Positions 47,267-49,810 of a stretch of DNA of 64,000 nt are shown in pieces. Numbering within the stretch: the stretch's first letter is position 1; the number at the start of each line of letters is the position of its first letter. Where the stretch lies: assembly GCF_008831045.1 (NCBI RefSeq), contig NZ_WAJS01000012.1:1-64000 (forward strand). Reading direction: 5' to 3'. This DNA comes from Adlercreutzia muris. GTDB lineage: Bacteria > Actinomycetota > Coriobacteriia > Coriobacteriales > Eggerthellaceae. A program made the translations under genes and the position numbers. The notes under the pieces are model-generated. The model was not told the DNA's origin. It searched no databases and worked only from the letters and a program-made list of their open reading frames with translations.

Positions 47267-48703
47267 TCAGCCCGCGGCGGCTTCGAGAAGCGGCTCGATA
47301 TAGGCAAGGGGCGCCACGCGAATGCGACCGCAACAGGGCGCGGGAACGAGCGGGGCGGTTGCTGCGGCCGCCTGGCCGCCAGGCACCTGCACGGCGAGCG
47401 GCCCGCCCTCGGCACCGCCTCGCCCAGCGCAACCTTGATCGCGGACAATGTACAGTCCCGGTTTGGGAGTGATCATGGTGACCGTGACGTCGGCGCGCAC
47501 CGTGTCGGCGGCGGCCGCGCCCGTCTGGGCCGAGAGCCCGCTCGGCACATCGGCGGCCACCACCACGGTGCCCCGGACGCGGGCGTCGTTCAGGGCGCGA
47601 ATCCATCTGTCGAAGGGGGCTTTCACCGCATCGTGGGAGAATCCGGTGCCGAGGATGGCGTCGATGGCGAGGGGCGCGGTCGCCAAAAGATCGGCAACCT
47701 CACCGGAATCGGGCGCGACGAGCACCGCGGCGCGGTCGCTCAGGGCCGCTCGGGCCCTGAGCGCCGCCGAGCGCGCCGGCTCGGCCCTTAGGTCTTCGGG
47801 AGCCCGCGCCGTCACCACGCGCACCGGGATACCCCACCGATCCAGGTACTCGGCGGCCACCCAGCCGTCTCCCCCGTTGTTGCCGCTGCCGCAGAAGACG
47901 ACAACCGGGCTCTCGCGCCGGAAGCCCCTGTGCCCGGCGCCAACGGCTGCCGCCGACCCATCGAAGCCCGCTGCGGCGCCAACGGCGACTAGCGGCACAT
48001 CGGCACCCGCGGCACCGCTCTCTGCGGCAACGTTCCCGCCAGCCGTTCTCCCCTCCAGCATCTTGCGCGCCTCGTAGGCCAGGAAGCGGCCCGCGCGGCG
48101 CATGAGTCTGTCGAGCGGCGTGCCGGCGGCGGCGATGGCCCGTTCCAGCGCCACCACTGCGGACACATCCAGCACCGGTGGCTCGAAGCAAGTCACCGCC
48201 TCGGCCATGGGACGGTAGGCCTCCACGAGCCGCGGCAGCGACCAGGCGGCGTTGGCCGGGCTCGTGGAGGGCAGCTTCTGGGCCGCGATGCCGCAAACGG
48301 GCTCGCACAGCTTCTCGTAGAGCCGCGCCGAGGTGGCGCCGGTGCAGAACACGTGCCGCACGGGAGCCGCATGCAGAATGCGCGAGAGATCGTTGGGCCG
48401 GGCGTTGCGAATGGAAGCGTCGGAGGCGCCCTCGATGTCGCAGGAGGCGAGCACGTCCCACAGCGCTATATGGTGGCGCAGCAGCAGATCGGTGCGCTCG
48501 GCGTTGCCCTCGGGCACCGGCTCGTCGAACAGCGCCGCCAGCACGCGCCAGAACCGATTCTGCGGATGGCCGTAGAAAAACCCCGCCTCCCGCGATTTCG
48601 GCGAAGGCATCGTGCCCAGCACGAGCACCTCCGACCGTCCATCGAACACCGGCGGAATGCCGTGCTCTACCGATTGCGGCTGCCTCTGCGTCTCTTTCGT
48701 CAT
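47267..48703 (-). CDS. Fusion of DNA-deoxyinosine/uracil glycosylase and NAD(P)H-hydrate epimerase (NnrE)
   Basis: Residues 1 to about 168 match the DNA-deoxyinosine glycosylase branch of the uracil-DNA glycosylase superfamily: VLVLGTMPSPKSREAGFFYG, HPQNRFWRVL, and IALWDVLASCDIEGASDASI. From about residue 172 the chain is a YjeF N-terminal/NnrE domain: VLDVSAVVALERAIAAAGTP, VVVFCGSGNNGGDGWVAAEY and AIDAILGTGF. NnrE epimerises damaged NAD(P)HX. Each half alone has about the normal length of a stand-alone protein, so this is a gene fusion with no stop between. GAAAGGGCAAGG precedes ATG 48703. Common theme, if any: repair of deaminated or hydrated nucleotides. Confidence 0.85.
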   Translation of the reverse strand: MTKETQRQPQSVEHGIPPVFDGRSEVLVLGTMPSPKSREAGFFYGHPQNRFWRVLAALFDEPVPEGNAERTDLLLRHHIALWDVLASCDIEGASDASIRNARPNDLSRILHAAPVRHVFCTGATSARLYEKLCEPVCGIAAQKLPSTSPANAAWSLPRLVEAYRPMAEAVTCFEPPVLDVSAVVALERAIAAAGTPLDRLMRRAGRFLAYEARKMLEGRTAGGNVAAESGAAGADVPLVAVGAAAGFDGSAAAVGAGHRGFRRESPVVVFCGSGNNGGDGWVAAEYLDRWGIPVRVVTARAPEDLRAEPARSAALRARAALSDRAAVLVAPDSGEVADLLATAPLAIDAILGTGFSHDAVKAPFDRWIRALNDARVRGTVVVAADVPSGLSAQTGAAAADTVRADVTVTMITPKPGLYIVRDQGCAGRGGAEGGPLAVQVPGGQAAAATAPLVPAPCCGRIRVAPLAYIEPLLEAAAG

Positions 48704-48902: not shown

Positions 48903-49571
48903 CTACATCAGGCGCACGGTGCTCTTGCGCTGGACGCGCGGGGTGCGGCAGGCGAACAGGCCGTGGCGGTTGCAATAGGCGAAAATGATGCCGAGACCGC
49001 GGTAAGGGAAGCGGGCATCGGCCGTCTGCTCGGGGTACAATTTGCGGAAGAACACCTGGTCAGTGGTCACGTATGCCATGAAGCTGATGAAGTGGTCCTT
49101 GCCCATGGGGTGCTCCATCGTAAGATACACCTCGCCGTCGGCCACCTCTACCCGGGGCAGATGAGCGGACGGGTCGGCCGCCGCCGCGTTCTCGGGAGCC
49201 GCGGGAATCCTCCCGTCGACGGCGTTCTCCACTTCCAGCACCGGCAGCGCGATGCCGCAGCAGCTGATGGAAGCCTCGCCCGTAGCGTGGATGACATTGC
49301 CGCACAGCGGGCACACGTAGAACTTCGCCCGCAGCAGGTTACCCGCGCGGTTGGCGTTCACGATCTGCTCGCCGGACAGAAGCTCGGCCACCGACACGCC
49401 GAGGGCGCAGGCCAAAGGCTCCACGAGCGTGATGTCAGGCAGTCCGCGATCCGTCTCCCACTTCGATACCGCCTTGTCGGTGATGCCGAGCCGATCGGCC
49501 AGGTGCCGCTGGGTCATTCCTGCCCGCTCGCGCAGGGCGCGGATGGACGCGCCGCTGATGTATGAGGTCAT
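48903..49571 (-). CDS. Xre-type regulator fused to a complete desulfoferrodoxin
   Basis: The 222-residue protein starts with an Xre helix-turn-helix (residues 9-64, MTQRHLADRLGITDKAVSKW). The rest is desulfoferrodoxin. Center I has CPLCG and CC (Cys87, 90, 104, 105), as in desulforedoxin. Center II, the superoxide reductase site, has all five expected ligands: His137, His154 (EHPM), His160, Cys200 and His203 (YCNRHGLF). This suggests a one-component regulator that senses superoxide, oxygen or iron state, or that both regulates and detoxifies. GAAGGAG precedes ATG 49571. It is divergent from the fluoride channel gene. Confidence 0.9.
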   Translation of the reverse strand: MTSYISGASIRALRERAGMTQRHLADRLGITDKAVSKWETDRGLPDITLVEPLACALGVSVAELLSGEQIVNANRAGNLLRAKFYVCPLCGNVIHATGEASISCCGIALPVLEVENAVDGRIPAAPENAAAADPSAHLPRVEVADGEVYLTMEHPMGKDHFISFMAYVTTDQVFFRKLYPEQTADARFPYRGLGIIFAYCNRHGLFACRTPRVQRKSTVRLM

Positions 49572-49606
49572 GGGGTGCTCCTTCTTCCGAATATTGAACG
49601 TCGCCG

Positions 49607-49635
49607 ATTATGGGCGCTCGCGACCGCCCTGGCAA
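49607..49635 (-). promoter_or_regulatory. Promoter of the HTH-desulfoferrodoxin gene
   Basis: On the minus strand TTGCCA (49635-49630), exactly 17 bases, and CATAAT (49612-49607), 36 bases before the ATG. Confidence 0.6.
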
Positions 49636-49810
49636 CCTACGCTTCGTAGACCCCATGTCCGTCTGCGAACCGTGCGACCACCGCCCGTCGGCCGCACGCC
49701 AACCGTCCTCCAGCCACACGGCAACCGAGCGCCCAGCGCCCGCGGACGCCCTTGCAGCCGCCCATCGCCTATACTGGCGAAAACGGAAACGATGGGGAAA
49801 GGGCAACATC

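Follow-up and report, generated by a model that had tools for sequence, protein, structure and literature searches.

What does a protein do that carries a DNA-binding domain and a superoxide reductase (SOR) module on a single chain? The question is raised by a gene in the window, the 64,000-nucleotide stretch of Adlercreutzia muris DNA analysed here. The initial annotation described its product as a helix-turn-helix (HTH) protein with a full superoxide reductase, and suggested direct sensing by an enzyme centre. The architecture is not novel, as an HTH-Dx-SOR class (Dx, desulforedoxin) with 19 proteins was already present in SORGOdb in 2011 (PMC3116461). We found no functional study of this class in the open-access literature searched.

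Architecture of the HTH-Dx-SOR protein

The gene and its coding features in the window are as follows.
48903-49571, minus strand: HTH-Dx-SOR protein gene of Adlercreutzia muris, 222 aa
49578-49583, minus strand: Shine-Dalgarno sequence AAGGAG, preceding the ATG start of the gene
49380-49544, minus strand: XRE/HTH_3 DNA-binding domain, residues 10-64, from Pfam HTH_3 and structural matches
49254-49313, minus strand: centre I, desulforedoxin-like, Cys87/Cys90/Cys104/Cys105, codons 87-106, CxxC-x13-CC
48951-49163, minus strand: centre II SOR domain, His137/His154/His160/Cys200/His203, with Ser135-Ala136 as the equivalent of Glu47-Lys48

The proposed combination of an HTH and a desulforedoxin-superoxide reductase module on one 222-residue chain was borne out by Pfam, an AlphaFold model and a ligand alignment. 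HTH_3 matches residues 10-64 with an E-value of 5.7e-14 (52.3 bits, gathering score 23), and the Desulfoferrodox family PF01880 covers residues 137-207 at 22.2 bits, exactly its gathering score. The N-terminal Dx model falls below threshold (14.3 vs 23 bits); all four Dx cysteines are nonetheless there. Desulfoferrodoxin/SOR structures match the AlphaFold model (mean pLDDT 88) over ~116 residues with VIA-align Z-scores of 14.0-14.7, and P22 c2-type HTH domains match it with a Z-score of ~10.7. The HTH domains of SinR and DdrO are further structural matches.

All nine ligand positions originally assigned (Cys87, 90, 104 and 105 in centre I; His137, His154, His160, Cys200 and His203 in centre II) are exact. 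The wording "full superoxide reductase" is nevertheless too strong: the metal ligands are complete, but Ser135-Ala136 adjoins the first His ligand in place of the Glu47-Lys48 pair, and the Dx loop is CxxC-x13-CC where canonical Dx-SORs have x15, the spacing that SORGOdb states for Dx in general (PMC3116461). Against the TIGR00320 equivalog for canonical desulfoferrodoxin, the protein scores 45.2 bits, below the cut-off of 146.9. The sequence does have the N-terminal HTH, the CxxC...CC Dx site and the predicted centre II Fe(His)4Cys ligands of the HTH-Dx-SOR class. Its HTH domain above the gathering score and the conserved palindromic dyad at its own promoter, a putative operator, also place it among the XRE/HTH_3 regulators.

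Adlercreutzia orthologues are 92-97% identical. Their dN/dS of 0.15-0.20, lowest in the HTH, together with relatives in several classes, indicates that the open reading frame is a real gene. The family is common in gut anaerobes, with at least 569 candidate loci in one scan. A plasmid or mobile origin was rejected, as both near-full-length matches in a plasmid collection are distant relatives. A separate open reading frame in the window (47270-48703, minus strand) encodes a uracil-DNA-glycosylase-superfamily domain fused with a YjeF_N domain.

The upstream dyad and promoter

Two elements lie upstream of the gene in the window.
49637-49649, minus strand: predicted dyad operator CTACG-AAG-CGTAG, centred at about -43, conserved across classes
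49607-49635, minus strand: sigma-70-type promoter TTGCCA-17-CATAAT, directly downstream of the dyad, with spacing conserved in a motif matrix of 101 loci

Together they span 49649-49607, with the -35-like TTGCCA at 49635-49630 and the -10-like CATAAT at 49612-49607. Upstream of 111 relatives, the k-mer CGTAGGT is present in 71 and the exact dyad CTACG-N3-CGTAG in 33. The consensus reads TCTACG-N3-CGTAGGTTGY, in which a -35-like TTGYNN is followed after 17 bases by a TATAAT-like -10. At least 12 of the 15 fixed positions were matched in 96 of 105 upstream regions, compared with a shuffle mean of 0.45, and a matrix trained on non-Coriobacteriia alone scored the window site at 27.1 (maximum in 740 shuffles, 3.2). 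The HTH-Dx-SOR genes of Coriobacteriia, Clostridia, Negativicutes and Spirochaetes nearly all have the element in front of them; in three apparent exceptions (L050, L121 and L030) it lies farther upstream, in two of them at the head of an apparent operon, preceding its first gene. This conserved operator-promoter, predicted from sequence comparison, is the main new result of the analysis.

The position of the dyad upstream of the -35 identifies it as a DNA element and not an RNA leader. Positions 49572-49640, initially put forward as the gene's own promoter region, lack nine of the 13 dyad bases (49641-49649), and this fragment could give a false negative as a binding probe since the operator is cut. 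Covariation between the operator and the recognition helix was considered for the CGTTCATTGC clade (L041-L048), where helix 3 is unchanged and no inference could be drawn.

The element is also highly specific. In the home genome the exact dyad occurs once, at the HTH-Dx-SOR promoter, and a wider regulon there was rejected, with 38 weaker matches (mostly with 2-3 mismatches) vs 33 in a reversed-pattern control. Exact dyads occur in 16 of 138 family genomes, nearly all at the HTH-Dx-SOR gene or its remnant; the off-gene exact sites are a chance-like one in G064 and extras in G008 and G108. Operator-promoter searches covered 50 carriers, 396 genomes of the same class and 391 of the class of G154, and they returned mostly HTH-Dx-SOR genes, among them a new one in the last class (L239). 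These genome comparisons establish both the conservation of the element and its near-exclusive link to the HTH-Dx-SOR gene.

Few second targets emerged, and the single clear one is a gene of the NADPH-dependent FMN reductase family, preceded by the element in G154 (L232, G154:C20:93723-93765). It was rejected as a general target, since a close homologue was found in 3 of 50 carriers and two of the three are without the element. A different XRE regulator, hydrophobic in its C-terminal part, has a near-match and a -10 upstream of it (L234, G152:C64). A short open reading frame behind the element in G008 (L237) is a weak remnant; it was not accepted as a deleted FMN reductase, since the similarity is limited to an NGSP start and a weak match at the C-terminus, and the sister-species stretch compared with it is without the region. 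Two more matches (L214 and L229) are without plausible promoter context. Clustering of the open reading frames in 82 loci yielded no conserved neighbour genes; nothing recurred apart from ABC transporters of a generic kind and antisense artefacts, so no signal can be read from gene context.

The element outlasts the gene in a sister species, G001 (G001:C1 1480674-1480949; L162, L006), where the HTH and Dx parts are gone, a remnant of ~71 residues is left, and operator and promoter are intact. The apparent deletion is flanked by 13-bp direct repeats, GGAGCACCCCATG, one at the ribosome-binding site/start and the other near codon 153. Both are carried by the window (49581-49569 and 49116-49104), and the loss appears to have arisen by deletion between them. 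Separately, the frame of L172 (G088) is apparently broken after the HTH by a frameshift or sequencing error, with its operator intact.

Metal ligands and catalytic residues

Across 106 deduplicated HTH-Dx-SOR relatives, the nine metal ligands are 92-100% conserved per position. Such near-invariance suggests that the metal sites matter. Lys48, by comparison, is kept in 4 of the 106 and absent in 102. Among 30 canonical SORs from carrier genomes, 29 retain Glu-Lys-His at the first His ligand, the odd one out (L245) being a SOR of different build, and most of the set have the x15 Dx loop. Two positions ahead of His160, every one of the 106 relatives has Lys or Arg (Lys158 in the window protein), whereas the home genome's own canonical SOR (G000:C18) has Glu. 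A strong canonical SOR match (PF01880) was found in 36 of the 50 carrier genomes surveyed, the other 14 being without one.

The loss of Lys48 and the presence of canonical SORs in most carriers suggest that selection probably does not act on enzymatic activity. The original idea of DNA binding and superoxide chemistry on one chain thus divides. DNA binding is strengthened, the protein being very probably a DNA-binding autoregulator given a dyad-promoter that is conserved across classes and nearly confined to its own gene, but superoxide chemistry as an enzyme is weakened. Natural SORs without Glu or Lys are mentioned in the SORGOdb article, N. equitans being an example (PMC3116461). The I. hospitalis SOR, counted as naturally without Glu or Lys, appeared among the structure matches as PDB 4brj, a T24K mutant. 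By analogy with such enzymes, HTH-Dx-SOR proteins may have residual SOR activity.

Substitutions at the ligands themselves are rare: His137 is replaced in five of the 106 relatives and His203 is Asp in eight, so that some of the family may rely on another site or another metal. In five proteins (L032, L033, L034, L035 and L040), centre I Cys105 is changed to His together with the His203 to Asp change in centre II. Three relatives of 324 aa (L037, L038 and L039) have an added C-terminal TipAS antibiotic-recognition domain.

Proposed mechanism and known systems

We infer that the N-terminal HTH would bind, as a dimer, to CTACG-N3-CGTAG abutting the -35 of its own promoter; autoregulation through this predicted operator is highly probable. 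The C-terminal module derives from a desulforedoxin-superoxide reductase, with both metal sites, presumed to hold iron, retained and the Glu/Lys assist mostly lost. It would most likely serve as a redox or superoxide sensor, altering DNA binding or RNA polymerase contact. The pattern of ligands and Lys48 is in keeping with retention of the metal site for sensing once catalysis had relaxed, but is no proof of it. We lean modestly towards redox sensing by the metal sites, and more tentatively, with less than even confidence, regard superoxide as the specific signal. The dyad centre near -43 resembles the operator position of lambda cI at OR2/PRM, which leans towards activation without being proof.

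A working superoxide reductase whose HTH merely limits its own expression would be a self-regulated enzyme and not a sensor. Most members retain all five centre II ligands, the known (predicted) regulatory site is the protein's own promoter, and the SORGOdb article, through its reference B112, reports natural SORs without Glu to work (PMC3116461). Yet Lys48 persists in just 4 of 106 relatives, a strong match to canonical SOR is present as well in 36 of 50 carriers, and the protein has diverged from the TIGR00320 equivalog (45.2 vs 146.9), making this unlikely. Conserved metal ligands beside unconserved catalytic residues would suit a regulator that answers to the status of iron or zinc, to nitric oxide or to O2, as would the paired Cys105 and His203 changes in five relatives and the extra TipAS ligand-binding domain of three. 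Fold and pentacoordinate ligands, however, correspond to those of the superoxide-reactive SOR, and no metal-transport gene recurs nearby in the 82 clustered loci; we give this reading some weight, as an improbable one.

An HTH fold joined to an iron enzyme does not necessarily bind DNA, and HppE structures match the window HTH; some other widespread regulator could then read the operator, leaving the HTH vestigial. This is very unlikely, as the operator follows the HTH-Dx-SOR gene from genome to genome and hardly occurs elsewhere, and no part of the protein is more constrained than the HTH. An autoregulatory XRE-family transcription factor with a SOR-derived iron site as probable sensor is accordingly the reading that we consider reasonably likely as a whole. 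Its strongest form, in which a widespread family of autoregulated transcription factors of gut anaerobes recruited a SOR Fe(His)4Cys centre, with the catalytic assist largely dropped, to sense superoxide directly, is a possibility that we hold with some doubt.

Few cases of direct superoxide sensing are known in bacteria, and we know of no precedent for a direct superoxide sensor built on a SOR centre. For a class named in 2011, without a functional study that we could find in the open-access literature, there is now a precisely defined and conserved operator-promoter, along with structural grounds for supposing that an enzyme domain became a sensor. A single protein and a single DNA fragment would suffice to test this role.

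The protein has the same sequence of parts as the SORGOdb HTH-Dx-SOR class, from an N-terminal HTH through a desulforedoxin Cys4 site to a SOR Fe(His)4Cys site, but the main text describing that class gives no function, operator or loss of Lys48 (PMC3116461). Desulfoferrodoxin/2Fe-SOR (PDB 1dfx, 2ji1 and 1vzg) has the same fold (Z ~14) and all nine metal ligands, whereas the window protein has an added HTH, no Glu47-Lys48 and a shorter Dx loop; it also differs from the home genome's canonical enzyme in having Lys158 in place of Glu. With XRE/HTH_3 repressors such as P22 c2, SinR and DdrO it shares the DNA-binding fold and a short palindromic operator, predicted here, but its effector part is a metal-binding SOR module and theirs is a dimerisation or protease-sensing domain. 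SoxR, a MerR-fold protein with a 2Fe-2S cluster, is likewise a metal-centre transcription factor (a predicted property here) tied to oxidative stress and with a small regulon. The folds are unrelated, and the SoxR operator lies between the -35 and -10, whereas the window dyad is upstream of the -35.
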